Assembly (NCBI GenBank): GCA_947493335.1
Contig: CANLQO010000006.1
Span: 60,393-124,392, forward strand
Length of the DNA: 64,000 nucleotides
Direction of reading: 5' to 3'
Source of the DNA: an uncultured Paracoccaceae bacterium
GTDB taxonomy: Bacteria > Pseudomonadota > Alphaproteobacteria > Rhodobacterales > Rhodobacteraceae
Below are positions 1 through 18,589 of this stretch, one piece after another (the stretch's first letter is position 1; each line of letters opens with the position of its first letter). The notes beneath the pieces were generated by a model that saw only the letters and a list, made by a program, of their open reading frames with translations, had not been told where the DNA came from and did no database searches. A program made the position numbers and the translations under genes.

Positions 1-639
1 GTGGCTCCTGACGGCGCGCCCGGTGCGCGTGGCGTGCAGTTTCGTGGCCCCGCAATTCCAGTCGCCGTAAACCAGCGGCCCGTGACCGACGGCTTCCCTT
101 ACCTTAATCAAACGCGCGGCGTCAGCTTGCCAATCGGCGTCTGCGCCAAGCTTGACCTGAAATTGCCGGATCCCCGTGGCATAGGCCTCGCGGGCGATCC
201 TTGCCATCTCGTCAGGGGCGACGCAGGTGATGGAATGATAAAGCGGCATATCCGCCCGCATGCGGCCACCAAGGAGGGCATAAAGCGGCAGGTCTGTCGC
301 CTGACCAAACAGGTCCCAAAGGGCAATATCGACAATGGATTTCGCTGCCTCGTGGCCCACCAGAAACCCGTCCAACTTGCGCATCGGTGCGTCGATACCC
401 AAGGGCGAAATACCAAGGATTTGAGGCGCCATTTCGGTCACCGCGCTGGGAATGCCCCCCGCAAAAGCAGGCAGATAATGCGGGATCGGACAGACCTCTC
501 CCCAGCCTTTCAACCCCGTATCGGTTTCCAGACGCAAGACGTGGGTGGTGACTGTGGCACAGGTTTTGCCCTCGGCCATGTAGTAGGTCTCGTGGCTGGT
601 CAGGTCGACGGACCAAAGGGTCATGCGATTGACCTTCAT
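1..639 (-). CDS. Enolase-superfamily (mandelate racemase/muconate lactonizing-like) protein, C-terminus truncated by the window edge
   Basis: Manual minus-strand translation from ATG at 639: MKVNRMTLWSVDLTSHETYYMAEGKTCATVTTHVLRLETDTGLKGWGEVCPIPHYLPAFAGG...DIALWDLFGQATDLPLYALLGGR...FQVKLGADADW. Homologous in layout to the next two genes. Missing from the ORF track because it runs off the window. Confidence 0.85.
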   Translation of the reverse strand, partial: MKVNRMTLWSVDLTSHETYYMAEGKTCATVTTHVLRLETDTGLKGWGEVCPIPHYLPAFAGGIPSAVTEMAPQILGISPLGIDAPMRKLDGFLVGHEAAKSIVDIALWDLFGQATDLPLYALLGGRMRADMPLYHSITCVAPDEMARIAREAYATGIRQFQVKLGADADWQADAARLIKVREAVGHGPLVYGDWNCGATKLHATRTGRAVRSH

Positions 640-1742
640 TAATAGACCGCCACCGGATCACCCAATGCGTCCTCATTGGGATGTACGCCCACGCCCGGTC
701 CCTCGGGCAGATGCAAATGCCCGTCCCGATTGCGTGGACCGCGCCCGCCTGCGATATCAACGGTGATCATATCCTGACATGCCCAAACTGCGCGGCAATT
801 GGCATCCGGGATCGTGGCGGCGAGATGCAGGGCTTCGCAATCCGCCAGAACCGATCCCCCCGTGGCCATCACAAACATGTCGATGCCATGGGCCAGTGCC
901 ACGTCCCGCATACGGGCCGCCTTGGTCAATCCACCCACGCGGTTGAGCTTAATGCCGAACACTTCGGCCAGTCCATCACGGGTTATCCTTGTCGCATCTT
1001 GCAAGGTGACAAGGCTTTCGTCGACGGAGACCGGTGCGGCATGTTTGCCGCAGATCGCCGCGATATCGTCAAGCGTTTCGCAGGGCTGTTCAAACATCAC
1101 CTGCAAGTCTTCGGTGGCATGCATCACACGAAGCGCCTGTTGCCGCGTCCAACCGCGATTGACATCGTAAAGGACGATTTCGCCGGGCCTGCGGATTTCT
1201 TCGACGTCGCGAATGCGGGCGATATCCCGTTCTACGTCACCGCCGATCTTGACCGAATGCGCGATGTAGCCACGTTGGCGATAGCGGTCGATGACGGCCC
1301 GGGTCTCTTCGACCGTTTTGGCACCAACTGATGATGCAATCGCGCGCGGTGTGCGCGACCCGCCACCCATCAGATCGGCAATTGGCAAGTTGGCAGCTTG
1401 CCCTGCAATGTCCCAACAGGCCATATCAATCGGGCTCTTGGCATACAGGTGGCCGGGCAGGGCAAGGTCCATTGCCCGCTCCACGTCGAGGACCCGACGC
1501 GGATCAAGCCCCAACACGAAGGGTGCCATGGTCTTGATCCCTGCGCGAATTCCCGGGCCATGGGCAGGCACATAGGTATGGCCCCAAGGGGTGCCCTCGC
1601 CCCAACCCGATAGACCCGCATCGGTGTCGATTTTCACCAGCGTGGCATCCAGCACCTCAAACTTCAGCCGCCCACCTGAGAGCCAGTATGGATGCTCAAG
1701 CGGCAGGTCGACGTGGTAGACTGAAATGCGCTTAATCTTCAT
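639..1742 (-). CDS. Enolase-superfamily protein (HpbD / cis-3-hydroxyproline dehydratase-like subgroup)
   Basis: MKIKRISVYHVDLPLEHPYWLSGG...VKIGGD...YDVNRGW...FEQPC...VDESL...IKLNRVGGL; metal-ligand D/E/D and two Lys motifs. TAATG overlap with the downstream gene. Start taken as MKIKR (ATG 1742), not the longer ORF. Confidence 0.85.
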   Translation of the reverse strand: MKIKRISVYHVDLPLEHPYWLSGGRLKFEVLDATLVKIDTDAGLSGWGEGTPWGHTYVPAHGPGIRAGIKTMAPFVLGLDPRRVLDVERAMDLALPGHLYAKSPIDMACWDIAGQAANLPIADLMGGGSRTPRAIASSVGAKTVEETRAVIDRYRQRGYIAHSVKIGGDVERDIARIRDVEEIRRPGEIVLYDVNRGWTRQQALRVMHATEDLQVMFEQPCETLDDIAAICGKHAAPVSVDESLVTLQDATRITRDGLAEVFGIKLNRVGGLTKAARMRDVALAHGIDMFVMATGGSVLADCEALHLAATIPDANCRAVWACQDMITVDIAGGRGPRNRDGHLHLPEGPGVGVHPNEDALGDPVAVY

Positions 1743-2845
1743 GCAGCATACTCCGCGACCGGTGCCCCAAGGCTCGCAAAGTCCGGCGTGACGCCAAGGC
1801 CCGGCAAGTTCGGCGCAAAAAGCTTGCCACCCTCGGCCCACGCCCCGCCAACTCCGGTGGAGCGGGTGTTGTAGTTCATCAGATCAGTGGTGTTCTGTAG
1901 ATAGTCGGGCGGGGTTGAGGCCGCAAAATGTGCAACCACCGTGCTGGCGATCTCGCCGCCCCATGTGTCCTCACTGACGACGGGAATACGGTTTTCAACC
2001 AGATAATCACGCACCCGGCGCGCTTTGCTTAACCCCCCAAGGTTCGAGATTTTCAGGCAACACACGTCAGCCCCGCGATCTGCGACAATCCGCTGGGCAG
2101 CGAAAATCCCGGTGACGCATTCGTCCAGCTTCATCGGCTGCTGCGCGACGCGGCGCACCTGTTGGCATTCTTCGTAAGTCCTGCAGGGCTGTTCGAGGAT
2201 GTAGTCAAGATCCTGGGTCGCGCGCGCTACCCGGATTGCGTTATCGACCCGCCATCCCTGATTGGCGTCTGCCATCGCCTTTTCACCCGGCTCCAGCAAG
2301 TCCACGCCCGACCTGATCCGGTCGATATCGCTTTTCCAATCCCCACCGACCTTGATCTGAAATTGCCGATAACGCTGTCTGCGGTAGCGCTGCATTTCAG
2401 ACAGTGTTTCTTCGGTCGCTTTCTGCGGCGCCACACGGTACATCGGTGCGCCATCGGTCAGTTTTCCGCCCAAAAGCATCCAGACTGGCTGGTCGCAGGC
2501 TTGCCCCAGAATATCCCAGCAGGCGGCATCAAACGGGGCCTTGGCGTAGCCGTGACCCTGAACCGTATGATCCATGATCTGTTCAATCTGCCCGACCTGA
2601 CGGGGGTCTTCGCCCAACAGCTTTGGTGCGACAAGGCGGGCCAATGCCTCGACGCCCTCGGAATGAGCCACCATGTAGTTTTCACCACATGGGGTGAATT
2701 CTCCGCTGCCTTGCAGCCCGGCGTCGGTATCGATGACGACAACGCTCGCGCGCGCGACTTCGATCGCGTTTCCCGCTCCCCAGACATACGTCCCGCCGAC
2801 ATAGGGCAGGTCGGTCTTGTAGATGCGGATGCGCGTGACTTTCAT
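1739..2845 (-). CDS. Enolase-superfamily protein (HpbD / cis-3-hydroxyproline dehydratase-like subgroup)
   Basis: MKVTRIRIYKTDLPYVGGTYVWGAG...FQIKVGGDW...ADANQGW...LEQPC...KLDECV...LKISNLGGL; ATGA overlap with the next gene. Confidence 0.85.
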   Translation of the reverse strand: MKVTRIRIYKTDLPYVGGTYVWGAGNAIEVARASVVVIDTDAGLQGSGEFTPCGENYMVAHSEGVEALARLVAPKLLGEDPRQVGQIEQIMDHTVQGHGYAKAPFDAACWDILGQACDQPVWMLLGGKLTDGAPMYRVAPQKATEETLSEMQRYRRQRYRQFQIKVGGDWKSDIDRIRSGVDLLEPGEKAMADANQGWRVDNAIRVARATQDLDYILEQPCRTYEECQQVRRVAQQPMKLDECVTGIFAAQRIVADRGADVCCLKISNLGGLSKARRVRDYLVENRIPVVSEDTWGGEIASTVVAHFAASTPPDYLQNTTDLMNYNTRSTGVGGAWAEGGKLFAPNLPGLGVTPDFASLGAPVAEYAA

Positions 2846-2870
2846 TGCCGCCCACCTGACGGTCTGGCGT

Positions 2871-3131
2871 CTAACGGGTCCGGCTGTCCAAAATTACCCC
2901 ACAGATCCGGCGCAACAACATCGCAATGGACGCCCCCATCAGAGCGACAGCGCCCAGCAGGCTGAGTGCGAAGAAAGGCCCGCCACCATCGGCGAGGATG
3001 AGTGCCAGGCAAATAACCACAAATGCTGTCAGGCAGAGTGCCAACGTCAGGCCGTAATTTCGGGGTCGCTCTGTTGGCGATTTCAATGCAAATAGGTTCA
3101 ACAGACGCGACAATACGGCCTTCAATGGCAA
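2871..3131 (-). CDS. Small hypothetical membrane protein (86 aa)
   Basis: Hydrophobic segments (LTLALCLTAFVVICLALILA; FFALSLLGAVALMGASIAML); co-directional in the operon. Confidence 0.5.
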   Translation of the reverse strand: MPLKAVLSRLLNLFALKSPTERPRNYGLTLALCLTAFVVICLALILADGGGPFFALSLLGAVALMGASIAMLLRRICGVILDSRTR

Positions 3132-3233
3132 TCCTCCGATTTAGGGTTATGCCATTGTGTATAGTGTATTTTTCCGCGTTTCGCAACGCGCGTTCGGTCG
3201 ATTGCCGTCGGGTGTAGCGAAATCGCCGCCGGA

Positions 3234-4316
3234 TCACGGGGTCACCACGATGTTGCCGGTGTGTTTCTTGGCGATGAAGGCGGATTGCGCCGCGTGAAGG
3301 TCTTCCAACGCGTAAGTCGCGGCAAGCGCGGGTTTAATCGCGCCCGCCTCGATATAACGGATCAGGTTGGTCATCACGTCGGGGTCGATCACTGTGGACC
3401 CGGTGAAGGTAAGGTCGCGCAAATAAAATGTGCGCAGGTCCAATTCGACCATGGGCCCGGCAATTGCGCCCGAGCAAGTATAACGTCCACCCCGTTGCAG
3501 CACGTCAATCAACGACGACCAATAGGGCCCGCCGACAACGTCGGCGACGACCGTGATCTTGTCATCGCCAAGGGCCGTAAGCAGGTTATTGGGCGCACGC
3601 GGCAAGACCCGGTCCGCACCAAATGCCGCGACGTCAGCGTGTTTAGCGGGCGAGGCGAGCGCGATGACCCTCGCGCCGCGCATCTTTGCCAATTGCACCA
3701 CGGCGCCACCAACCCCACCGGATGCGCCGGGCACAAGAACCGTATCCTCCGCTGTCACAGCAGCGCGCGTCAACATGCCTTCTGCGGTTGAATAGGAACA
3801 AGAAAATGTCGCCAGTTCCGCATCGGTGAAGCTGGATGTGATTGCCAGAGCGTTCTGGCTGGGCATCACTGTATATTCTGCAAATCCGCCGTCCATTTCG
3901 GACCCGAAGTATCCGGTCTTATTCTTGTTGAGCGGATCGTCAACATCGCGCAGCCAGTTGTCTGTGATGATCCGTTCACCAATGCGAGATGCATCAATGC
4001 CGTCGCCCACGGCCACGATCTCTCCACAGACATCAGCGCCCTGAATGCGAGGGAAGGATATTGGTGTGCCGCCCCAGGCCGGGTCCTCTTCGCTCACGTT
4101 GTCAAAGCCGGCCCCAGTGGTCGCATCCGTCATTGTCTTCGAATACCAGCCCGATCGGGTGTTGACGTCGGTGTTGTTCAGCCCGCAGGCCGCGACCTTG
4201 ATCAGCACTTGGCCGGGGCCGGGGTCGGGGCGCGGCCAGTCTGGGTGAAAAACGATCTGATCCATATCACCATGGCCCATCGTCACCATCGCGCGCATTG
4301 TTTTGGGCAGGGTCAT
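3234..4316 (-). CDS. Zinc-binding alcohol dehydrogenase / quinone oxidoreductase family protein
   Basis: MDR fold: GQVLIKVAACGLNNTDVNTR, GADVCGEIVAVG, VLVPGASGGVGGAVVQLAKMRGARVIAL. Confidence 0.85.
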   Translation of the reverse strand: MTLPKTMRAMVTMGHGDMDQIVFHPDWPRPDPGPGQVLIKVAACGLNNTDVNTRSGWYSKTMTDATTGAGFDNVSEEDPAWGGTPISFPRIQGADVCGEIVAVGDGIDASRIGERIITDNWLRDVDDPLNKNKTGYFGSEMDGGFAEYTVMPSQNALAITSSFTDAELATFSCSYSTAEGMLTRAAVTAEDTVLVPGASGGVGGAVVQLAKMRGARVIALASPAKHADVAAFGADRVLPRAPNNLLTALGDDKITVVADVVGGPYWSSLIDVLQRGGRYTCSGAIAGPMVELDLRTFYLRDLTFTGSTVIDPDVMTNLIRYIEAGAIKPALAATYALEDLHAAQSAFIAKKHTGNIVVTP

Positions 4317-6763
4317 CAGGCGGGTTCCTTGATCTGATCTGCGCGCGGGCGCAGGCTTTGGGGGTCGTAGGCCGGTTCTGACAGAACGCGGGCCTGTCTT
4401 GGTTCGCCGTGAATCACGACCTCTAACGCGGTACCTGGCTGCGCCGCCTCTGGCGCGACATAGGCAAAGGCGAGGATTGTTCCGACGCTGTGACCGTACA
4501 CGACAGAGGCGGTCGATCCGATCACCTTTCCGTCTTGCAGCACCGCCTCACCACCATGCCCGTCGACCTTGCCATCCGGTTCGATCGACAGATAGGCACA
4601 AACCCAAGGCAATTCAGTATTCAGAGTCAGATCGCGCCCGATGTAGTCTTTGTCGGTGCGGGCAAAGCGTAGCACATCTGCCTCGGCCAACGTGACCTCA
4701 TTCGTCAACTCGCCAGCACCTTTGAACCCCTTTTCCATCCGCAGCACATTCATCGCAAAACTGCCGTAGTCGGCAATGCCGTGGGATGTGCCCGCATCCC
4801 AAAGCGCGGTGTAGACGTCCACGCAGGCGGCATTGGGCATGTGAAGTTCCCATCCCAATTCTCCGGCGTAAGACATACGGAACGCCCACATCTGATGACC
4901 GGCAATCGTGATCTCTTGCAGGCTCATCCATGGGAAGTTGGCGTTGCCAAGCGGCGTCGTCGTACAAGCGCCCAGCACGTCTCGCGCCTTTGGTCCGTTC
5001 AGGCTCAGCGCGGCATGTGTGCTGCTGAGGTTTTCGACCGTCACGTCCGCATCGCCCTTGGAGTGGTTCATTTGATCCAGCAGACGTTGCTCAAAGAAGG
5101 CGGCGCAGACCAGATAGAACTGATCCTCACCCACCCGCGCGACAGTCGTCTCAAGCTCGATTCGGCCACGCCGATTGAGCATATGCGTCAACCCGATCCG
5201 CCCGATCCGCGGCAGGCGATTGGCAGTCAGGTGATCCAGAAGTTTGGCCGCGTCGGGACCAGAGACCAACGCTTTGGTGAAGGCGGTCACATCCATGATG
5301 CCGACGGCGTTGCGGACCGCATCAACCTCTGCCGCAACGACTTCATCGACGGGGGTTCGTCCAAACCCATAGTGATCACGCTGTTCCACGCCATGTCTTG
5401 CAAACCACCGCGGGCGTTCGTGGCCGTAAACCTCTTCATGAACAGCACCCTTGGCTTTCAGGACGTCATGCAGCGGCGACGGTTTGACGGGCCGTCCGGC
5501 CAGCCGGTTGAAATGTGGAAATGGGATTTCGTGGCGCAGGCAATAATCCTCTCGGGCCTTGACCACCTGCCACGCCTTGGTCGCATAGGGTCCAAATCGG
5601 CGCGGATCGTATTCCCGCATAGAGATATCAGCGGCCCCATGCACCATCCAGCGTGCCAATTCGCGCGTTAGCCCCGGGCCCCAGCCGATGCCAATTTGCG
5701 TCCCACAGCAACACCAGTAATTGCGCACACCCGGAGCAGGCCCAATAAGAGGGTTGCCGTCGGGGGGGTGACTGATCGCGCCGTGAACTTCGCGTGTTAT
5801 TCCAAGCTCGGCAAAGATCGGCATTCGGTTCAGGCTTTCCTCAAGCCACGGCATCACACGGTCGTAATCGGCATCAAACAGCCAGTTTTCATAGTCCCAC
5901 GGGCAATGATCATGCCAGACCGAATTTGGGTTTTCCTTTTCGTAAATGCCGATCAGCCCGCGCTTCTGTTCCATCCGGATATAGCCGGACACCTTTCGAT
6001 CATCCCGGATTACCGGCAACTCGCGTTCGAGGCTTTCAAACTCCGGCACCGTTTCCGTCACGAAATAGTGGTGCGTCATCGAGGTCATTGGGAATTGCAG
6101 ACCAGACCATTCACCCATCTGGCGGGCATAGGTCCCGCCTGCGTTGACCACGTGTTCGCAGGTGATCGTGCCTTTTTCGGTCTCAACGACCCATTCGCCA
6201 TGGGCGGACTGAGTAATATTAGTGGCGCGGCAGCGGCGGATGATTCTTGCGCCCTTGGCGCGCGCGCCAGCGGCGAGCGCCATTGTCACATTCGTCGGGT
6301 CGACATGGCCATCATCAGGCGTGTGCAGCGCCCCCAGAACGCCATCGAGGTTATAGAAAGGGTGCAGTTCTGCAACCTTATCGGGACCAACCAATTCGAT
6401 GTTGAATCCAAGCGCGCGCCCCACCGACAGCGTGTGGCGCAGCCAGTCCATTTCATCGGGCGTATAGGCAAGCCTGAACGACCCGCAGCCATGCCATGTC
6501 ACGGGTTGCCCCGTCTCGGCCTCAAGCCCGCCAGCATAAAGCCCAATGTTGTAATCGACGCATTTGCCCAATCCGAAAGAGCTAGTGGAATGGGTGATCT
6601 GACCGGCGGCATGCCATGTGCTGCCCGATGTCAGCTCTGCCTTTTCCAGCAGCACGACATCTTCCCACCCTTCACGGGTCAGGTGGTAGGCAAGGCCGCA
6701 GCCCATCACACCTCCACCAACGATGACGACGCGTGCGTGCGAAGGGAATGGGGCTGTCGACAT
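4316..6763 (-). CDS. FAD-dependent oxidoreductase with C-terminal GcvT domain (dimethylglycine/sarcosine dehydrogenase-like)
   Basis: N-terminal RVVIVGGGVMGCGLAYHLTREGWEDVVLLEKAELTSGSTWHAAG; C-terminal aminomethyltransferase-like region (MDVTAFTKALVSGPDAAKLLDHLTANRLPRIGRIGLTHMLNRRGRIELETTVARV...SYAGELGWELH). Start assumed at MSTAPF. Confidence 0.88.
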   Translation of the reverse strand: MSTAPFPSHARVVIVGGGVMGCGLAYHLTREGWEDVVLLEKAELTSGSTWHAAGQITHSTSSFGLGKCVDYNIGLYAGGLEAETGQPVTWHGCGSFRLAYTPDEMDWLRHTLSVGRALGFNIELVGPDKVAELHPFYNLDGVLGALHTPDDGHVDPTNVTMALAAGARAKGARIIRRCRATNITQSAHGEWVVETEKGTITCEHVVNAGGTYARQMGEWSGLQFPMTSMTHHYFVTETVPEFESLERELPVIRDDRKVSGYIRMEQKRGLIGIYEKENPNSVWHDHCPWDYENWLFDADYDRVMPWLEESLNRMPIFAELGITREVHGAISHPPDGNPLIGPAPGVRNYWCCCGTQIGIGWGPGLTRELARWMVHGAADISMREYDPRRFGPYATKAWQVVKAREDYCLRHEIPFPHFNRLAGRPVKPSPLHDVLKAKGAVHEEVYGHERPRWFARHGVEQRDHYGFGRTPVDEVVAAEVDAVRNAVGIMDVTAFTKALVSGPDAAKLLDHLTANRLPRIGRIGLTHMLNRRGRIELETTVARVGEDQFYLVCAAFFEQRLLDQMNHSKGDADVTVENLSSTHAALSLNGPKARDVLGACTTTPLGNANFPWMSLQEITIAGHQMWAFRMSYAGELGWELHMPNAACVDVYTALWDAGTSHGIADYGSFAMNVLRMEKGFKGAGELTNEVTLAEADVLRFARTDKDYIGRDLTLNTELPWVCAYLSIEPDGKVDGHGGEAVLQDGKVIGSTASVVYGHSVGTILAFAYVAPEAAQPGTALEVVIHGEPRQARVLSEPAYDPQSLRPRADQIKEPA

Positions 6764-6825
6764 CGGGCGCCTCTGATTCAAAAAGTCCTCGACAGGCTAA
6801 TCGGACAAATATACCATCGTCAATC

Positions 6826-7713
6826 ATGAATGACACAAACGTATCATTGACCGTTCTGACTCGGCTCGCCGACGAACTGACTGATCTCACGCCAGAGGCG
6901 CGCAAGGCCGCAACCTATGTGCTTGAAAACCCGCGCGATGTCGGCGTTTCAACAGTGCGCGAGATTGCAGAAGCCGCGCAGGTGAAGCCCAACACCGTTG
7001 TGCGTATGGCGCGGCAAATCGGCTTTGACGGGTACGAGGATTTTCGTGAACCGTTCCGCGACGCCATTCGGCGCGGGGCGGCTGACTTTCCTGATCGGGT
7101 GCGTTGGTTGCAGGATATTCGCCGGTCCGGCGCCCTTGGCGAGCTTTATGCGGACATGGTGCAGGGGGCTTTGCGCAATATCGAAGATACATTTGCGGGG
7201 ATCACCGCAAACGCCCTTCAGACAGCGGCAGAGACGATTTGGGCCTCGCGTAATGTCTTTACTCTTGGGGTCGGCGTCAACAACTCCAACGCCTGCAACT
7301 TCACCTATCTCGCGTCCACCGGCATGGTGCAATTTTCGGCAATTCCGCGGCCGGGCTCGACCGCCGTGGATGACCTGGCCTGGGCTGATGCGCGCGACGT
7401 TCTGATTGCCATTACGTGCAAGCCTTACCGCACCGAGGTTGTCGAAGCGGTGCAGATCGCTCGCGAACAGGGCGTGCGGGTGATCGCGCTATCCGACAGC
7501 CCGGCAAGCCCGATCATTCGCGGCGCAGATCACGGATTTGTCGTGGCCGCCGAGACGCCGCAGTTCTTCCCGTCATCCGTCAGCACAATCGCCCTGCTTG
7601 AGACACTTTTGTCTTTTGTCATCGCTGTGGCCAGTGATGAGGTCGTGAAAAGGGTCGAGACCTTCCACAAGCGGCGACATCAACTTGGCATCTATGACGA
7701 AGGCGCTTCATGA
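6826..7713 (+). CDS. MurR/RpiR family transcriptional regulator
   Basis: N-terminal RpiR HTH (LTPEARKAATYVLENPRDVGVSTVREIAEAAQVKPNTVVRMARQIGFDGYEDFRE) and SIS domain (DVLIAITCKPYRTEVVEAVQIAREQGVRVIALSDSPASPI). Confidence 0.9.
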   Translation: MNDTNVSLTVLTRLADELTDLTPEARKAATYVLENPRDVGVSTVREIAEAAQVKPNTVVRMARQIGFDGYEDFREPFRDAIRRGAADFPDRVRWLQDIRRSGALGELYADMVQGALRNIEDTFAGITANALQTAAETIWASRNVFTLGVGVNNSNACNFTYLASTGMVQFSAIPRPGSTAVDDLAWADARDVLIAITCKPYRTEVVEAVQIAREQGVRVIALSDSPASPIIRGADHGFVVAAETPQFFPSSVSTIALLETLLSFVIAVASDEVVKRVETFHKRRHQLGIYDEGAS

Positions 7714-8789
7714 CTGGCCCGGTCTGGTCCCTCGCTGCGCGGTATTACACCGATCCGGCAGTATTCGAGGCCGAACGCGCGGGTCTTTTGGCGCGCACAT
7801 GGCAATTCGGTTGTCACTTGAGTGACCTGTCCAAGCCGGGGGAATACGCGACATTCGAAGTCGCAGGCGAAAGTCTGTTCGCCATTCGGGGACAGGATGA
7901 TCAGGTCCGTGTCTTTTACAACGTCTGCCAACATCGTGCGCATCAGTTGGTGCAAGGCCGCGGCGTTACGCGCGTGGTCGTCTGCCCTTACCATGCCTGG
8001 ACCTACGAGTTGACTGGCGAACTGCGTGCGGGCCCGAATATCAAGGCGGTTGAAGGGTTCGACAAAACCAGCGTCTGCCTGACAGAGGTCCGGTCAGAGG
8101 CATTTCTGGGTTTTCTCTTCGTCAACCTCGACCCAGATGCCGAACCGATGGATGACTGGTTCCCCGCTGCACGCGCGGAGCTCGAAGAATGGGTCCCGCA
8201 ATGGGATGCGCTTAAACCGCTCGAATGGGTGGAGATCCCAGAAGACTGCAATTGGAAAGTCTCGGTCGAGAATTACTCCGAATGCTACCACTGCAGCCTG
8301 AACCATCCGACATTCGCCAATGGCGTGGTCAAGCCTGAGACCTACGATATCCAGCCACAGGGTATGTGTCTGCGTCACACGACAGAGTGCCAAAGCCTCG
8401 ATCAGATGACCTATGATATCCAGTCGGGTTTTGCCCATGCGGCTGAATATTCCAGTTGGTTTTTGTGGCCGATGTTCAGTTTTCAGGTTTATCCCGGCAA
8501 CGTCCTCAACACCTACCACTGGCGCCCTGACGGACCCGATCGCGTGATGGTTTGGCGTGGCTGGTATTCGGTGAATGGCGCCGACGACCCGAAGGTGCGG
8601 CTTTTGGCAAAGCAAGACCGGGAAACGACTGTCGAGGAAGACATCCGCTTAGTCGAATCGGTGCAACGCGGTCTTCGGTCGCGCGGTTATCGTCCCGGCC
8701 CGCTTGTGGTCGATCCCAAGGGTGGCGTGAACTCGGAGCATCCGGTCATGCATTTGCAGCGCTGGATGCGGGAGGCAATTGATGGCTGA
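7710..8789 (+). CDS. Rieske 2Fe-2S aromatic-ring-hydroxylating-type oxygenase, probable betaine N-demethylase family
   Basis: Rieske CQHRAH...CPYHAW; mononuclear Fe motif ENYSECYHCSLNH. ATGA overlap with the RpiR gene. Confidence 0.88.
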   Translation: MTGPVWSLAARYYTDPAVFEAERAGLLARTWQFGCHLSDLSKPGEYATFEVAGESLFAIRGQDDQVRVFYNVCQHRAHQLVQGRGVTRVVVCPYHAWTYELTGELRAGPNIKAVEGFDKTSVCLTEVRSEAFLGFLFVNLDPDAEPMDDWFPAARAELEEWVPQWDALKPLEWVEIPEDCNWKVSVENYSECYHCSLNHPTFANGVVKPETYDIQPQGMCLRHTTECQSLDQMTYDIQSGFAHAAEYSSWFLWPMFSFQVYPGNVLNTYHWRPDGPDRVMVWRGWYSVNGADDPKVRLLAKQDRETTVEEDIRLVESVQRGLRSRGYRPGPLVVDPKGGVNSEHPVMHLQRWMREAIDG

Positions 8790-9201
8790 ACCATTGACCG
8801 GATGCTGTGCCTGCGGGGCGGTGCGATGGGTGTCCAACGGTCCGGTGCTTTGGGCGGGGCATTGCCATTGCGAAAGTTGTCGGCGCGCGACCGCTTCCCC
8901 GATGACCAGCTTTTTTGGCGTGCCCCGGACCTCTGTGATCTGGACAGGCAAACTGTCCCGTGTGTTGACATCCCATGGCCGGGTGCAACGCCAGTTTTGC
9001 CCAAGTTGTGGCACCCAGATGACCTATCAATTCGACGGCTGGCCAGACGAAACACACCTCTATGCCGCCACCCTCGATGAGCCTGGTCGCTTCGTGCCGC
9101 AGGCTCATTATCACTATGCTGAACGGTTACCGTGGCTCTTCATTTCGGATGACCTGCCCAAATATTCCGCGTCGGCCGAGGCAGGGGACCCAATGCCATG
9201 A
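8782..9201 (+). CDS. GFA/CENP-V-type zinc-binding protein
   Basis: Cys motifs GCCACGAVRW, GHCHCESCRRATASPMTSFFGV, FCPSCGTQMTY typical of the GFA fold. Confidence 0.85.
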   Translation: MAEPLTGCCACGAVRWVSNGPVLWAGHCHCESCRRATASPMTSFFGVPRTSVIWTGKLSRVLTSHGRVQRQFCPSCGTQMTYQFDGWPDETHLYAATLDEPGRFVPQAHYHYAERLPWLFISDDLPKYSASAEAGDPMP

Positions 9202-10016
9202 TGCCCAAACGTTGGACACCTGAACAAAAGCTCTTTCCGCATCAGGTCGGCTTTACCTGCCCGCCGTTTGACTATGACGCAGCCCCTTCTGATTTTCTGC
9301 GCATGTCACCGCCGACGGTTGGTGTGCATGGCTGGATGCTGCATGCGCCCGACTACGCCCATGGGCTGGATCAGCGGCGCCAGAACTTTGGGATGCTGGA
9401 AGATTTCGTGCATTGTATGGCCCGCAATGGCGTCGACGTCTGTGGGCAGGTCGGGTCGAATTGGGTTCATGCCAGCGGGCTTGGCGTCGCTGGCATCAAA
9501 CAGCATTGCACGGACTTGTCAGACAAATTCGGGGTCCGCTTTCACATGGCAGGCTATGCGATGGTCGAGGCTTTGCGTGCCATGAACATCGAAAAAGTTG
9601 CCTTGAACGCCGCCTACCATTGGCCCGCTTGGTGGCAGGGGACTGTTGCCTTCCTGAAGGAGGCTGGATTTGACGTGATCTGGGCGGGGAACTTTGTCGA
9701 TCAAGGTTGGTTTCCTGACCAAGACACCGTAAATGCGCGACGTTGGATTTTTGACGGTGATCTTTTTGATCGTAGTTTTGATTACGTGGCAGAGCAGGCG
9801 CCGCAAGCAGATGCCTTTCTGATCAACGGGATGTGCAATTTTCGCACCGGCCCGAACGGGCTTCCGCAACGACCGCTGCATCTGGCGCCCGCAGCAGAGG
9901 CGCGATTGGGCAAGCCCGTCATCGGCCATGATACGGCCCTCTATTGGCGCATCATGAAGGATCTTGGCATCGCGCCGGTGACGTCGCAATGCCAGCTACT
10001 GGAAAGTTTGAGGTGA
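9198..10016 (+). CDS. Asp/Glu racemase superfamily, arylmalonate decarboxylase/maleate isomerase-like protein
   Basis: Fold-like motifs: GVAGIKQHCTDLSDKFGVRFHMAGYAMVEALRAMNIEKVALNAAYHW...FLKEAGFDVIWAGNFVDQG...INGMCNFRTGP; ATGA overlap with the upstream gene. Confidence 0.6.
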   Translation: MMPKRWTPEQKLFPHQVGFTCPPFDYDAAPSDFLRMSPPTVGVHGWMLHAPDYAHGLDQRRQNFGMLEDFVHCMARNGVDVCGQVGSNWVHASGLGVAGIKQHCTDLSDKFGVRFHMAGYAMVEALRAMNIEKVALNAAYHWPAWWQGTVAFLKEAGFDVIWAGNFVDQGWFPDQDTVNARRWIFDGDLFDRSFDYVAEQAPQADAFLINGMCNFRTGPNGLPQRPLHLAPAAEARLGKPVIGHDTALYWRIMKDLGIAPVTSQCQLLESLR

Positions 10017-10022
10017 CCCGCC

Positions 10023-10769
10023 ATGCATAAAATCATCGCACTTTGGGCCGTGCCTCGGTCAACTTCGACCGCCTTTGAATGGATGATGCGCCAGCGCGGC
10101 GATCTCGACTGCCTGCACGAACCGTTTGGCGAAGCGTGGTATCAGGGTGAAGACCCGCTTTGGCCGCGATTCCGTGCAGGCGAAAAAACAACGCCGGGGC
10201 TGAGCATAGAAAGTGTTTGGGCCGACATTCAGGCGCGGGCAGAAAAGGGCCCAGTCTTCCTGAAAGACTTTCCGCACTACGTATCGCATATGTGGACACC
10301 GCCGTTCCTGAACAAATTCACCCATGCATTCTTGATCCGTGACCCAGCCAAAACGCTGTCGTCGCTTTACAACAAGTGGCCGGATTTCGATGAATTAGAG
10401 GTCGGTTTTCCCGAGCAGCGTGCTTTGTTCGATCTACTCACGGCACTTAATGGTCGCCCGCCACCCGTCATTGACAGCGATGACCTGCTGGAGGATCCCG
10501 TCGGTATGGTGGCGGCGTTTTGCAAAGCGGTCGGCATCCCTTTTCTGCCAGATGCCCTGTCGTGGGAACCTGGCGCCGACACTGGCGCTTACAGTTGGTG
10601 GGATGGCGGCAGCTTTCATGCAAATCTTCGGAATTCGACCGGTCTGAAGCCACAGCCGCGCCGCTATGTCGAAGTTGCAGACGCGCCTGAAAGGGTCCGT
10701 CGCGTGCACCGGCGGATGCGCCCGCACTACACCCACCTTCACGCCCATCGCATCTCGACCGGGAACTGA
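10023..10769 (+). CDS. Sulfotransferase-family protein
   Basis: N-terminal PAPS-like motif KIIALWAVPRSTSTAFEWMMRQRGDLDCLHEPFGEAWY; KDFPHYVSHMWTP...FLIRDPAKTLSSLY. Confidence 0.75.
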   Translation: MHKIIALWAVPRSTSTAFEWMMRQRGDLDCLHEPFGEAWYQGEDPLWPRFRAGEKTTPGLSIESVWADIQARAEKGPVFLKDFPHYVSHMWTPPFLNKFTHAFLIRDPAKTLSSLYNKWPDFDELEVGFPEQRALFDLLTALNGRPPPVIDSDDLLEDPVGMVAAFCKAVGIPFLPDALSWEPGADTGAYSWWDGGSFHANLRNSTGLKPQPRRYVEVADAPERVRRVHRRMRPHYTHLHAHRISTGN

Positions 10770-10792
10770 GCCAGACCGAAAGGACCCCACAT

Positions 10793-11173
10793 ATGACGAC
10801 GTTTGACGAAGACCTGTTTTTGAAGGGGCTGGAGCAGCGCAAAGCCACGCTTGGCGCTGAATATGTCGAAAAGAACCTTGCCGCCGCCGATGAGTTTACA
10901 CGTCCTTTTCAAGAGGCGATGACAGCCTGGTGCTGGGGCTTTGGCTGGGGTGACGATGTGATCGACGCCAAAACCCGGTCCATGATGAACCTTTCGATGA
11001 TCGGGGCCTTGGGCAAAATGCACGAATGGGAAATCCACTGCCGCGGTGCCGTGACGAATGGTGTGACGAAAGAAGAAATTCGCGCGATCATCCATGTGGT
11101 CGGCATCTATTGCGGTGTGCCGCAGGCTTTGGAATGTTTTCGCGTGGCCCGCAAGGTATTGGAAGAGGATTAA
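10793..11173 (+). CDS. Carboxymuconolactone decarboxylase (CMD) family protein
   Basis: TKSMMNL-type motif (TRSMMNLSMIGALGKMHEWEIHCRGAVTNGVTKEEIRAIIHVVGIYCGVPQALECF). Confidence 0.85.
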   Translation: MTTFDEDLFLKGLEQRKATLGAEYVEKNLAAADEFTRPFQEAMTAWCWGFGWGDDVIDAKTRSMMNLSMIGALGKMHEWEIHCRGAVTNGVTKEEIRAIIHVVGIYCGVPQALECFRVARKVLEED

Positions 11174-12846: not shown

Positions 12847-14769
12847 ATGATGCCAAATCGCCCCAAGCGCGTGTCAAAAGCCAAAGCCAAACCGCGGACC
12901 GTGTCGGCGAAACATTGGTTAACCGGGTCCGCGATATTTGTGGGTGCGGCCATCTGGGCCGGGCAGGTCTTTGGCGAAAGCCACGAGACGATCATCGAAA
13001 GCCACGGTTACAGCAACTTTGGCGAATTGAAGTACGGCCCCAATGAGGTGCTCGACTACGTCAATCCCGACGCGCCCAAGGGCGGAGAAATCGCGCTATG
13101 GGCGCAAGGCACGTTTGACAGCTTCAACCTATTCGCCCGTGATGGGGTCCCGGCGGCGCAAAGTACGATACCCTACGAAAGTGTTCTGACAGCAACGGCC
13201 GACGATGCTTATGGTTCATACTGTTATCTCTGCGTCACGATGGAATATCCCGAAAGCAAGGACTGGGTGATCTTTAACCTGCGCGATGATGTGACCTTTT
13301 CCGATGGCACAGGCATGACCGCAGAAGATATCGCGTTTTCGTTTAACCTCGTTCTGGAACAGGGCATCGCCGAATACCGCAATGTTGTGACGCAGTACAT
13401 TGCCGATGTTGAGGTGCTGGATACCTACCGCATAAAATTCACCTTCACCGAGTCTGCGCCGCGCCGTGACGTGATCGGCTTTGCTGGCGGCTCCCGCGCA
13501 TTTTCCAAGGCGTGGTTTGAAGAGACTGGCACCCGATTGGACGAATCGAGCGATGCCCCTTTCATGGGTACAGGTGCCTATCTGCTGGATAGTTTCGATA
13601 TCAATCGCCAGATCATTTACAAGCGTGACCCGAACTGGTGGGGCGCAGATCTGCCGATCAATCAGGGTCGCAACAACTTTGACACCATCCGGGTAGAGTA
13701 TTTTGCCGATAGCTCCGCCGCGTTCGAAGGCTTCAAATCCGGGGCCTATACTTTCCGGTCTGAAAACAGCTCTAAGCAATGGGCGACGGGATATGACTTT
13801 CCTGCAGTGCAAAAGGAATGGGTAAAGGTCGAAGAACTGCCCGATGGCAATATCGGCTCTGCGCAGGGATTTGTGTTCAACCTTGATCGCCCGCAATGGC
13901 AGGACCCGCGCGTGCGCGAAGCCGTCCGCTTGATGGTCAACTTCGAATGGATGAATGACAGCCTCTTCTACGGCCTTTACGCCCGCCCGATTTCATTCTG
14001 GGACAACTCTGATCTGGCCGCGTCCGGCGTGCCGACCCCTGAAGAGGTCGCAATCATGCAGCCGCTTGTGGACGAAGGGCTGCTAGATGCGAGCATCCTG
14101 ACAGCCGAAGCGGTGACACCACCGGTCTCGGCCACGGTGAACCGCCCGCTGGACCGTGCGAACTTGCGCAAGGCCTCGGCCCTGCTGGACGAAGCGGGCT
14201 GGATCGTTGGCGATGATGGCATGCGCCGCAAGGATGGGCAGACGCTGGATGCCGACTTCCTGCAGTTTTCGCCACAGTTCGACCGGATCATCAATCCCAT
14301 TGTCGAGAACCTCAAGCGCCTCGGCGTTAATGCGAAACTGGACCGGGTTGATACCTCGCAATTCGTAGAGCGGAGCCGGTCAGGCGACTACGACCTGATC
14401 AACAGCTCACCGGGGCAGGGATTTGAACCGGGCTCTGGCCTGCGCCAGTGGTTTGGGTCCGAAACCGCCGATGACAGCTCTCGCAATCTGATGCGTTTGC
14501 GTTCACCCGCAGTGGATCGATTGATCGACGTCGTCGTCGCAGCAGAAACGCTTGATGAGTTGCGGACCTCTGTGCACGTGCTGGACCGCGCCTTGCGGGC
14601 TGAAGGTTTCTGGATTCCGCAGTGGTTCAAAGACGTCCACACCGTGGCCTACTACGATATGTTCCGCTTCCCTGAAGAACTGCCGCCGTTCGCCTTGGGT
14701 ACGCTGGATTTCTGGTGGTACGACGCAGAAGCGGCGGCCGCACTCGAAGCGGCGGGCGCATTTCAGTAA
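12847..14769 (+). CDS. yejA: ABC transporter substrate-binding protein, YejA-like (oligopeptide/microcin C family)
   Basis: ESHGYSNFGELKYGPNEVLDYVNPDAPKGGEIALWAQGTFDSFNLFARDG; followed by two permeases and a double ATPase. Confidence 0.88.
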   Translation: MMPNRPKRVSKAKAKPRTVSAKHWLTGSAIFVGAAIWAGQVFGESHETIIESHGYSNFGELKYGPNEVLDYVNPDAPKGGEIALWAQGTFDSFNLFARDGVPAAQSTIPYESVLTATADDAYGSYCYLCVTMEYPESKDWVIFNLRDDVTFSDGTGMTAEDIAFSFNLVLEQGIAEYRNVVTQYIADVEVLDTYRIKFTFTESAPRRDVIGFAGGSRAFSKAWFEETGTRLDESSDAPFMGTGAYLLDSFDINRQIIYKRDPNWWGADLPINQGRNNFDTIRVEYFADSSAAFEGFKSGAYTFRSENSSKQWATGYDFPAVQKEWVKVEELPDGNIGSAQGFVFNLDRPQWQDPRVREAVRLMVNFEWMNDSLFYGLYARPISFWDNSDLAASGVPTPEEVAIMQPLVDEGLLDASILTAEAVTPPVSATVNRPLDRANLRKASALLDEAGWIVGDDGMRRKDGQTLDADFLQFSPQFDRIINPIVENLKRLGVNAKLDRVDTSQFVERSRSGDYDLINSSPGQGFEPGSGLRQWFGSETADDSSRNLMRLRSPAVDRLIDVVVAAETLDELRTSVHVLDRALRAEGFWIPQWFKDVHTVAYYDMFRFPEELPPFALGTLDFWWYDAEAAAALEAAGAFQ

Positions 14770-14775
14770 TCCAAG

Positions 14776-15849
14776 ATGGGCGCATATATCCTTCGGCGAT
14801 TGTTGTTGGTGATCCCCACCCTCTTGGGGATCATGATCATCAACTTCGCACTCATTCAGTTTGTGCCGGGCGGCCCGATTGAGCAGATCATCGCTCAGAT
14901 TGAGGGTGGCGGAGATGTTTTTGAAAGCATCTCGGGCGGTGGTAGCGAACTGACCGAAACGGGCGACAGCGATTACGTTGGTGCGCGCGGCCTGCCGCAG
15001 GATTTCATCGAAGAGTTGGAACGCGAGTTTGGTTTTGATAAACCGCCACTCGAACGTTTCCTCAACATGATGTGGAACTACATCCGCTTCGATTTCGGCG
15101 AGAGTTATTTCAGATCCGTCAGTGTGGTCGATCTGGTGCTTGAAAAGATGCCCGTCAGCATCACGCTGGGCCTTTGGTCCACGCTGATCGCCTATCTGGT
15201 CTCAATCCCGCTGGGCATCAAAAAGGCGATCCGCGACGGGTCCAAGTTTGACACATGGACCAGTGGCGCGATCATCATCGGTTACGCCATCCCCGGTTTC
15301 CTGTTTGCGCTATTGTTGATCGTCCTGTTTGCAGGCGGTTCCTATTGGCGCATCTTCCCATTGCGCGGCCTGACCAGTGACAACTGGGAACAGCTATCCG
15401 CCATCGGCAAGGTACTGGACTACTTCTGGCACATTGCATTGCCGGTCATTGCCTCGACCATCTCGGCCTTTGCCACACTCACCTTGCTGACCAAGAACAG
15501 CTTTCTGGATGAGATCAAGAAGCAGTACGTGATTACCGCCAAGGCCAAGGGCCTGTCAGAGGGTCGCGTTCTTTACGGCCACGTTTTCCGCAATGCTATG
15601 CTGATCGTGATTTCGGGCTTTCCAGCACTGTTTATCGGCGTTTTCTTCGGCGGCTCGCTGATCATCGAAACGCTTTTCTCCCTCGATGGTCTGGGTCGAT
15701 TGGGGTTCGAGGCGGTCGTCGCCCGTGACTACCCCGTGGTTTTTGGCACGCTTTTTGCCTTCTCGCTTCTGGGGCTGATCATCGGGATCATCACCGATCT
15801 GACCTATGTGCTGATCGACCCACGTATCGATTTTGAAGGGCGCGGTTGA
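14776..15849 (+). CDS. yejB: ABC transporter permease YejB
   Basis: [47 protein letters not shown] permease EAA region. Confidence 0.9.
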
Positions 15850-16997
15850 TGGCAGATACTTTTGTCCCAATGGAAAAGCCCAAGCGCGTCTGGCTTTCAC
15901 CGCTGAACCAGCGCCGCCTGCGCAATTTCAAACGCAACACCCGCGCGGTCTGGTCGCTTTGGATATTCCTGATCCTCTTTGTGATCTCGCTATTTGCCGA
16001 GTTCATCGCCAACGACAAACCGATCCTTGTCGGCTATCGCGGCGAGTTGCGTATGCCCATTTTCCAGTTCTACTCAGAACAGGACTTCGGCGGGGATTTC
16101 CCGACAGAGGCGGGCTATAAGGACATTGAGGTCAAATGCCTCATTGCGACGGGCGGCCTGTTGGAGTGCTTCGATACACCTGAATCCCTTGTGGAGGCGG
16201 TCGAGACCGGCGTCGATCTTGACATCGAAGGGTTCGAACCGGGTTGGACGATCTGGCCCATTATTCCCTATAGCTACGACACTATCGTCGATGTGGCCGG
16301 CGTGGCCCCTGCACCCCCGTCAGAGACCAACTGGCTGGGCACCGATGATACCAAACGCGACGTGGTCGCGCGGATCATCTACGGCTTCCGCCTGTCGATC
16401 TTCTACGCCATCATGGTGACTGTCGGGGCTTCTGTCGTCGGCGTCATTGCCGGGGCGGTGCAAGGCTATTTCGGCGGCTGGACTGACCTGATTTTCCAGC
16501 GGATCATCGAGATTTGGTCGTCGACGCCTTCCATCTACGTCATCATCATCATGACAGCGATTTTGGGGCGAAGTTTCTGGCTCCTCGTGTTTCTCTCCAT
16601 CCTCTTCGGGTGGCCCGCGCTGGTGGGCGTGGTCCGTGCCGAATTCCTGCGCGCGCGCAATTTCGAATATGTTCGTGCGGCCAAGGCGCTGGGCGTCAGC
16701 GACCGCACCATCATGTTCCGCCACATGCTGCCCAACGCGATGGTGGCGACCGTGACCATGCTGCCGTTTCTCTTTACCGGGGCGATCGGCGGTCTTGCGG
16801 GCCTCGACTTCCTTGGCTTTGGCTTGCCGTCATCCGCCCCGTCCCTTGGAGAACTGACCTTGCAGGCGAAACAGAACCTGCAGGCGCCTTGGCTTGGGTT
16901 CACCGCCTTCTTCACTTTCGCCATCATGCTGTCGCTTCTGGTCTTCATTTTCGAAGGCGTGCGTGATGCATTTGACCCCAGAAAGACCTTTGCATGA
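15846..16997 (+). CDS. yejE: ABC transporter permease YejE
   Basis: [29 protein letters not shown]...[26 protein letters not shown] overlap with yejB. Confidence 0.9.
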
Positions 16998-18589
16998 GCG
17001 TTGTTCTGGACGTCAAAAACCTCAATGTCGGGTTCCGGCAGGATGGGCAGCTTCACCCTGCCGTGCGCAATGTCTCGTTCCAGATTGAAAAGGGCGAGAC
17101 GGTCGCGCTTGTGGGTGAAAGCGGCTCTGGCAAGTCCGTTACGGCGCTTTCAACCGTACAGCTTTTGGGGGACAGCGCAGAGGTCGAAGGGTCGATCACA
17201 TACGAAGGCACCCAAATGGTCGGGGCTTCGGAACAGGATCTGCGGGCTGTCCGCGGGAACGATATCAGCTTTATCTTTCAAGAGCCGATGACATCGCTCA
17301 ACCCACTGCACACGATTGAGCGGCAATTGACCGAATCCATCGAACTGCATCAGGGATTGCGCGGCGCAAAGGTGACCGAAAAGATCATCCAGCTGCTCAA
17401 TCAGGTCGGAATTCGTGATGCCGAAAGCCGCCTGACGGCCTATCCGCACCAGCTATCGGGTGGTCAACGGCAACGCGTGATGATTGCCATGGCGCTGGCA
17501 AACGGGCCGGATTTGCTGATTGCCGATGAACCCACGACCGCGCTGGATGTCACCATTCAGGCGCAAATTCTTGATCTGCTGGAAGAGCTCAAGCGGAAAG
17601 AGGGCCTCTCGATGCTCTTCATCACGCACGACCTGACGATTGTACGCAAGATTGCGGATCGGGTTTGTGTGATGAAGGATGGCGAGATTGTCGAAACCGG
17701 CCCGACTGCGGAAATCTTTGATAGCCCCCAACATCCTTACACACAAATGCTGCTCGCCGCCGAAAGCGCGGGCGTTCCCGATCCGGTCCCTGCAGAGGCG
17801 CCACTGGTCGCGCAGACCGATCAAATGAAGATTTGGTTCCCGATCCAGCGCGGGTTGCTCAAGCGTACCGTCGGCTACGTGAAAGCGGTCAATGATGCGA
17901 CCTTGACCGTGCGGGCAGGAGAGACAGTCGGCATCGTCGGCGAAAGCGGATCAGGAAAGACGACGCTTGCGCTCGCCATCATGCGGCTGATCCGGTCCGA
18001 GGGGCGGATCAATTTCAAAGGCACCGACATTCATCACCTCAACCAGCGGCAAATGCGGCCCCTGCGGTCAGAGATGCAGATCGTGTTCCAGGATCCTTAT
18101 GGCAGCCTGAGCCCGCGCATGACGGTAGAGCAAATCATCGCCGAAGGGCTGACGATTCACGAAATTGATCCGGGCCGCGATCAGCGCGAGATGGTGGCCG
18201 ACATCATGCAAGAGGTGGGTCTGGAACCGGCCATGATGCATCGCTATCCGCATGAATTCTCTGGCGGCCAGCGCCAGCGGATCGCCATCGCGCGCGCAAT
18301 GATCCTGCGGCCCAAGCTGGTCGTGTTGGACGAACCGACCAGTGCGCTGGATATGACGGTACAGGTGCAGATCGTCGAACTCTTGCGCGATTTGCAAAAG
18401 AAATTCGGACTGGCCTATCTGTTCATCAGTCACGACCTCAAGGTCGTGCGCGCGCTCTCACACAAGGTGATGGTGATGAAACAGGGCGACGTGGTCGAGG
18501 CAGGCGATGCGGCTGCGATCTTTGACGCGCCGCAGACGGATTATACGCGCACCCTGATGGCGGCCGCCTTTGAAGGGCGCGCGGTTTAA
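16994..18589 (+). CDS. yejF: ABC transporter ATP-binding protein YejF (two ATPase domains)
   Basis: Two Walker A (GESGSGKS, GESGSGKT) and two LSGGQ-type signatures (LSGGQRQR, FSGGQRQR). Confidence 0.92.
   Translation: MSVVLDVKNLNVGFRQDGQLHPAVRNVSFQIEKGETVALVGESGSGKSVTALSTVQLLGDSAEVEGSITYEGTQMVGASEQDLRAVRGNDISFIFQEPMTSLNPLHTIERQLTESIELHQGLRGAKVTEKIIQLLNQVGIRDAESRLTAYPHQLSGGQRQRVMIAMALANGPDLLIADEPTTALDVTIQAQILDLLEELKRKEGLSMLFITHDLTIVRKIADRVCVMKDGEIVETGPTAEIFDSPQHPYTQMLLAAESAGVPDPVPAEAPLVAQTDQMKIWFPIQRGLLKRTVGYVKAVNDATLTVRAGETVGIVGESGSGKTTLALAIMRLIRSEGRINFKGTDIHHLNQRQMRPLRSEMQIVFQDPYGSLSPRMTVEQIIAEGLTIHEIDPGRDQREMVADIMQEVGLEPAMMHRYPHEFSGGQRQRIAIARAMILRPKLVVLDEPTSALDMTVQVQIVELLRDLQKKFGLAYLFISHDLKVVRALSHKVMVMKQGDVVEAGDAAAIFDAPQTDYTRTLMAAAFEGRAV

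Follow-up and report, generated by a model that had tools for sequence, protein, structure and literature searches.

A conserved divergent gene cluster of marine Rhodobacteraceae with a probable role in betaine N-demethylation

Gene layout and conservation of the cluster

The window considered here is a stretch of 64,000 nucleotides from an uncultured Paracoccaceae bacterium, part of a 124-kb contig in a 4.05-Mb genome that its named relatives place in the Rhodobacteraceae, and one end of it carries two divergent operons that combine enolase-superfamily genes with genes for putative N-demethylases. On the minus strand lie a fusion of a DMGDH-type flavin oxidoreductase with GcvT folate domains (4316..6763), an MDR protein resembling quinone oxidoreductases and enoyl reductases (3234..4316) and the enolase-superfamily enzymes E1 (368 aa, 1739..2845), E2 (367 aa, 639..1742) and E3, the last assigned to the MLE subgroup (1..639). 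Only the initial 213 codons of E3 fall inside the window; the complete product has 367 aa (L010:15929-17032(-), equivalent to G000:C6:59928-61031). Downstream of it come a class III pyridoxal phosphate (PLP) enzyme of 425 aa that resembles glutamate-1-semialdehyde aminomutase (GSAM) and a HIBADH-like dehydrogenase of 306 aa, with a tRNA-Pro gene adjoining. The plus-strand operon opens with a regulator of the RpiR/MurR family, containing HTH_6 and SIS domains (6826..7713), and a Rieske non-haem iron oxygenase similar to the carnitine monooxygenase CntA (7710..8789). Start and stop codons overlap at DMGDH/MDR (TGATG), E1/E2 (ATGA), E2/E3 (TAATG) and RpiR/Rieske (ATGA).

A first-pass annotation of the window had placed all the genes that it named correctly, and the TAATG and ATGA overlaps that it described between the enolase paralogs are real. 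Its picture of three divergent paralogs also stands, given mutual identities of 32-39%, except that the segment 1-639 is only part of E3, a gene that runs past the window. The GSAM-like gene beyond the window edge and the link to dddQ described below were outside its view. The region had also been called an island, for which we find no support: GC content is even, at 0.55-0.61 throughout, and the tRNA-Pro gene beside the operon was not seen in relatives, so that a genomic island was rejected.

How widely is this arrangement shared? Searching genome contigs for E2 returned 80 loci, at 85-92% identity, and 11 more were added from genomes, spread over genera, in which E1 is present. The E2 loci belong nearly all to marine Rhodobacteraceae (Ruegeria, Shimia, Sulfitobacter, Lentibacter, Planktomarina and others), the exceptions being one SAR116 and two gammaproteobacterial metagenome-assembled genomes, and E2 identity across genera is mostly about 80-92%. 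In about 80 loci the same layout recurs, with Rieske-RpiR divergent from DMGDH-MDR-E2-E3-GSAM. Gene counts were made in the 73 loci longer than 15 kb, scoring genes at >40% identity; they are not counts of independent events, because E2 or E1 was the criterion for picking the loci, near-duplicates are among them and many belong to Ruegeria. On this scale E2 is found in 73 loci, RpiR in 72, E3 in 71, DMGDH and Rieske in 70 each, MDR in 68, GSAM in 65 and E1 in 47.

The remaining genes of the plus-strand operon are more variable. They encode a GFA-family protein matching the Pfam glutathione-dependent formaldehyde-activating family (8779..9201; 18 of the 73 loci), AMD, an arylmalonate-decarboxylase/Asp-Glu-racemase-like protein that scores under the curated cut-off (9198..10016; 35 loci), ST, assigned by a Sulfotransfer_5 domain match (10023..10769; 35 loci), and CMD, a carboxymuconolactone-decarboxylase-like protein (10793..11173; 46 loci, and the distant cluster described next).

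Distant loci weigh more than these counts as evidence of conservation. In one, from another alphaproteobacterial family (L127), Rieske-RpiR is divergent from DMGDH-GSAM-CMD-MDR-E2; the identities are 43-61%, and the only enolase is of the E2 type. Another distant genome (L128) has only an E2-Rieske pair, at 47% and 53% identity. E2 is thus present in each distant version of the cluster that was examined. From these versions Rieske, DMGDH, GSAM, MDR and E2 can be read as an old core, to which E3, E1 and DddQ look like additions made in the marine versions. Three enolases, which the first-pass annotation gave among its reasons for a different route, therefore do not define the cluster: 23 of 65 loci have no E1, and a distant version manages with E2 only. 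The recurrence of the gene set across genera and families is well above chance.

Enolases and partner enzymes

All three enolases carry the hallmarks of the MLE subgroup, namely three acidic metal ligands and two lysines, one where barrel strand 2 ends and one where strand 6 ends. These five residues are invariant in 184 orthologues (47 of E1, 70 of E2 and 67 of E3), and so E1, E2 and E3 should all be catalytically active. In a phylogenetic tree each forms its own clade (support 1.0 for E1, 0.78 for E2 and 1.0 for E3, with one more divergent locus copy inside E3); 2QDD is sister to E2, and E1 leans towards 4MGG (0.76). The separate clades indicate that these are old, separate lineages. In one locus the family is larger still: L033:5350-14000 shows six consecutive enolase matches by tblastn, five of them called as open reading frames (ORFs), with a DddQ-like cupin among them.

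Solved structures exist for orthologues of E1 (PDB 2RDX, 79% identity) and E2 (PDB 3EEZ, 89% identity), both deposited only as putative enzymes, and the closest solved relative of E3 is 4MGG, at 40% identity. The informative comparisons are with 4E8G (with 4IZG and 4J1O), which we take to be the proline-betaine/hydroxyproline-betaine epimerase of Paracoccus, and with 4MGG, presumably a cis-3-hydroxyproline dehydratase. Identity of the enolases to 4E8G and 4MGG is 30-42%, with E2 at 37% to 4E8G. The best protein family model for all three is NF043002, whose cut-off of 500 bits none of them reaches (E1 391.6, E2 321.5, E3 319.1).

For the epimerase HpbD we assumed the catalytic residues K163, D193, E218, D241 and K265, whose spacings (102, 30, 55 and 78) match 4E8G exactly; the further HpbD residues D292 and W320, likewise assumed, then fall at +27 and +55 counted from the second lysine. 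At +55, the position of the betaine-contacting tryptophan W320, Trp occurs in 70 of 70 E2 proteins, as in 4E8G, while the same position reads T-D in 47 of 47 E1 and C-D in 67 of 67 E3 sequences; 4MGG has T-D, the same as E1. This difference suggests that E2 acts on a quaternary betaine and that E1 and E3 act on demethylated intermediates. E2 lacks the Asp equivalent to D292 and the Trp of the DxWGG motif, which are replaced by Met (+27) and Gly (+30) in 70 of 70 sequences, and it is therefore probably not HpbD itself. E1 and E3 have catalytic residues in common with 4MGG, including the T-D pair in E1 and the Asp in E3, but they are only 40-42% identical to it, score under the equivalog cut-off and lie inside an N-demethylation cluster.

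The two putative demethylases can be recognised over their full lengths. Carnitine monooxygenase is the best solved match of the Rieske protein, which contains the motifs of the Rieske cluster, iron ligands in the form of two His and an acidic residue, and the bridging Glu of the ECYH motif (within ENYSECYH), a residue found in 62 of 62 orthologues. Unlike the CntA system, the gene here has no CntB reductase gene seen adjoining it; it lies beside RpiR and opposite the N-demethylase operon. With the model for the glycine betaine monooxygenase GbcA (NF058607) the protein scores 152.1 bits against a cut-off of 670. Alignment of the DMGDH protein to mammalian DMGDH runs from end to end and takes in the STWHAAG stretch, and the protein has the DAO, FAO_M, GCV_T and GCV_T_C architecture; STWHAA is invariant in 75 orthologues.

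Zinc alcohol dehydrogenases carry a catalytic Cys at the site where the MDR protein has GLNNTD, and this replacement favours a role for the MDR enzyme in reducing double bonds over one in alcohol oxidation. The GSAM-like enzyme reaches 362.5 bits with the HemL model TIGR00713, short of the cut-off of 527, and its assignment as a haem gene was rejected because the genome has two 5-aminolaevulinate synthase genes, so that a haem role is unnecessary.

Linkage to DddQ

Between MDR and E1 or E2, 41 loci encode a protein of about 192 aa, whose gene in many cases overlaps its neighbours. An assignment of this protein to DUF4863 proved wrong, since it matches the Pfam family DMSP_lyase (PF16867), whose name refers to dimethylsulfoniopropionate (DMSP). 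The orthologue from R. lacuscaerulensis (L107) matches the crystallised DddQ 4LA2 with E 4e-84, and the metal motif WHxHxAEE-Y is found in 37 of 50 cupins. When a second cupin type is counted, DddQ-type cupins occur in 47 of the 65 loci that hold DMGDH, MDR and E2. The dddQ region of Ruegeria and Roseovarius is the same cluster, and there dddQ is flanked by MDR on one side and the enolases on the other (L030, L107).

The window genome differs in that its cluster has no dddQ. The slot between MDR and E1 is filled by a 388-bp segment (window 2846-3233) whose only ORF, doubtful as a coding sequence, would specify an 86-aa membrane protein (2871..3131, minus strand; TTG start, GGAGG upstream); no dddQ remnant was detected in the segment, and no convincing homologue of the ORF turned up in the related loci searched. 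A DddQ-like cupin is encoded instead on contig C1, amid the housekeeping genes mnmA and metA, where its gene is divergent from one for an aldehyde dehydrogenase (ALDH; L119:9262-11446, equivalent to G000:C1:1365.3-1367.4k). That enzyme is closest to betaine-aldehyde and aminobutyraldehyde dehydrogenases, and about 22 loci have an orthologue of it, mostly at 71-88% identity, within the cluster. Because orthologues of both genes are found in the enolase cluster of relatives, the pair looks like a split-off piece of the pathway.

A set of 298 Rhodobacteraceae genomes holds 53 places with a DddQ-family gene, and in 21 of these E1 or E2 is no more than 15 kb away. Even away from these enolases, 5 of 13 places examined adjoin AMD-ST-GFA, ALDH, CMD, MDR or DMGDH-E3-GSAM. 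By association, DddQ-family cupins belong to the pathway of this cluster far beyond chance, though not exclusively. Tandem DddQ-type cupins, often of two distinct types, occur in L132, L134, L031 and L062, as has been reported for Roseovarius nubinhibens, and the two types may differ in substrate.

Part of this linkage has been noticed before. In R. pomeroyi and R. nubinhibens dddQ was found to be linked to a gene called MDR028 (SPO1593 and ISM_14095, respectively; PMC3338564). With that linkage noted in 2012 and structures solved for E1 and E2 orthologues, the suggestion of the first-pass annotation that the system is undescribed holds only in part. No description of the cluster as such was found in the literature searched on the R. 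pomeroyi region, enolase/Rieske and homarine/N-methylglutamate operons, hydroxyproline betaine and DddQ, a search whose coverage did not extend to key Hpb papers.

Proposed pathway and alternatives

The reading that we favour, and hold to be somewhat better than an even bet, is that the two operons form a catabolic cluster for an N-methylated zwitterion, or betaine. The proposal of the first-pass annotation that this is a betaine or N-methyl catabolic cluster is supported by the full-length resemblance of its two demethylases to carnitine monooxygenase and DMGDH, together with the HpbD-type betaine-contact Trp kept by E2. Gene content, its conservation, the intact catalytic residues and the signature that sets E2 apart from E1 and E3 are observed; beyond them, we infer the class of substrate, the individual reactions and their order as follows. 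By means of its two lysines, E2 would probably racemise or epimerise the quaternary betaine at the carbon beside the carboxylate. The Rieske monooxygenase would then take off one N-methyl group as formaldehyde, and the DMGDH-GcvT flavoprotein would take off the remaining N-methyls as methylene-tetrahydrofolate. E3, along with E1 where present, would next epimerise or dehydrate the demethylated amino acid, and the MDR protein, which lacks zinc, would reduce a conjugated double bond, in relatives possibly the product of the DddQ-type cupin lyase. The amino group would be moved or removed by the GSAM-like PLP enzyme, and ALDH, encoded elsewhere in this genome and within the cluster in relatives, would oxidise the resulting semialdehyde, with both operons presumably controlled by RpiR.

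Several points weigh against this proposal. The pocket of E2 differs from that of HpbD at the two positions named above, and the use of +55 as a reporter of betaine binding depends on HpbD residues that we have assumed, even though their spacings fit exactly. Neither a dedicated transporter nor a Rieske reductase gene was identified within the cluster, and the missing transporter means that the substrate is not nameable from sequence. Finally, AMD, the sulfotransferase and CMD have no explained role.

Could the cluster simply be a rearrangement of the known proline-betaine/4-hydroxyproline-betaine (Hpb) pathway, in which E2 is HpbD, the Rieske and DMGDH enzymes are the demethylases and E1 and E3 act on free hydroxyproline isomers? 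The two systems look alike, in that both bring together a two-lysine enolase of the HpbD family, a Rieske oxygenase and a flavin demethylase; the enolases belong to the HpbD/cis-3-hydroxyproline dehydratase family, with NF043002 as their best model, and the Trp of E2 and the T-D pair of E1 also speak for such a scheme. We nevertheless consider it unlikely, since E2 is only 37% identical to 4E8G with two further pocket positions changed, all three enolases stay under the model cut-off, and the cluster yielded no gene named for an enzyme of proline or hydroxyproline. The clusters also hold two or three enolases (six in L033) rather than one, as well as the GSAM-like enzyme, MDR, RpiR, CMD and DddQ, and we know of no place for GSAM, MDR, CMD or DddQ in the textbook Hpb pathway. 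The first-pass annotation was right, then, that the gene content departs from the Hpb/stachydrine route.

The head group of a betaine lipid, either homoserine betaine (from DGTS) or 2-hydroxymethyl-3-trimethylammoniopropanoate (from DGTA), would be a special case of the betaine reading. Both head groups carry three N-methyls, are zwitterionic and have an alpha proton next to the carboxylate; most loci of the cluster are marine, and the HIBADH-like gene at the operon end would suit a hydroxymethyl acid. That gene lacks conservation in other copies of the cluster, however, and no lipase or phosphodiesterase was seen in the cluster. The argument is one of chemical plausibility only, and we think such a substrate quite improbable. 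A cluster for DMSP or another dimethylsulfonium compound, in which DddQ cleaves the sulfonium and the other genes process related sulfonium compounds, seems to us quite improbable as well. In its favour are the presence of DddQ in 47 of 65 loci, the crystallisation of the R. lacuscaerulensis protein as a DMSP lyase (4LA2) and the use of dddQ SPO1596 as a DMSP marker gene (PMC9038784). However, a linked DddQ is missing in 18 of the 65 loci, the copy in the window genome is unlinked, the Rieske and DMGDH genes indicate nitrogen-linked methyls, and MDR028 could not replace the acrylyl-CoA reductase AcuI, whose gene acuI is not near dddQ (PMC3338564).

On the betaine reading, the cluster is a real, strongly conserved variant of betaine N-demethylation that had been partly visible through dddQ, and it appears to demethylate a nitrogen osmolyte in many marine bacteria. 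Its strong conservation in marine roseobacters implies that the substrate is probably a common marine metabolite. The cluster also ties DddQ and the two structures deposited without function (those of the 2RDX and 3EEZ orthologues) into one testable pathway. In the literature DddQ is a marker for production of the climate gas dimethyl sulfide (DMS), and its role in the cluster that houses it in most relatives can be tested. A bolder idea, which we put forward tentatively and would back at rather less than even odds, is that DddQ cupins were recruited primarily as a beta-eliminating step of this betaine N-demethylation pathway, a marine route for a common nitrogen osmolyte built through serially duplicated enolases, the conversion of DMSP to DMS being a side or secondary activity. 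If DddQ does mainly serve a nitrogen-betaine pathway, metagenomic counts of dddQ would not measure DMS potential.

A few neighbouring genes deserve brief mention. The HIBADH-like gene at the operon end (L010:13598-14605) lies 11 bp from the tRNA-Pro(CGG) gene; neither was found at that place in the related loci searched, and the gene was rejected as a core member since the cluster elsewhere has no conserved copy. Membership of the cluster is not obvious for the peptide-type ABC transporter genes (extracellular binding protein and permeases) that lie past a pheA-like gene, at window 12847-18589. Beside the reduced cluster of L127 (L127:5485-8851) are genes for an aldehyde:ferredoxin oxidoreductase and a pyridine-nucleotide oxidoreductase along with a small ORF, a group that could possibly substitute for ALDH.

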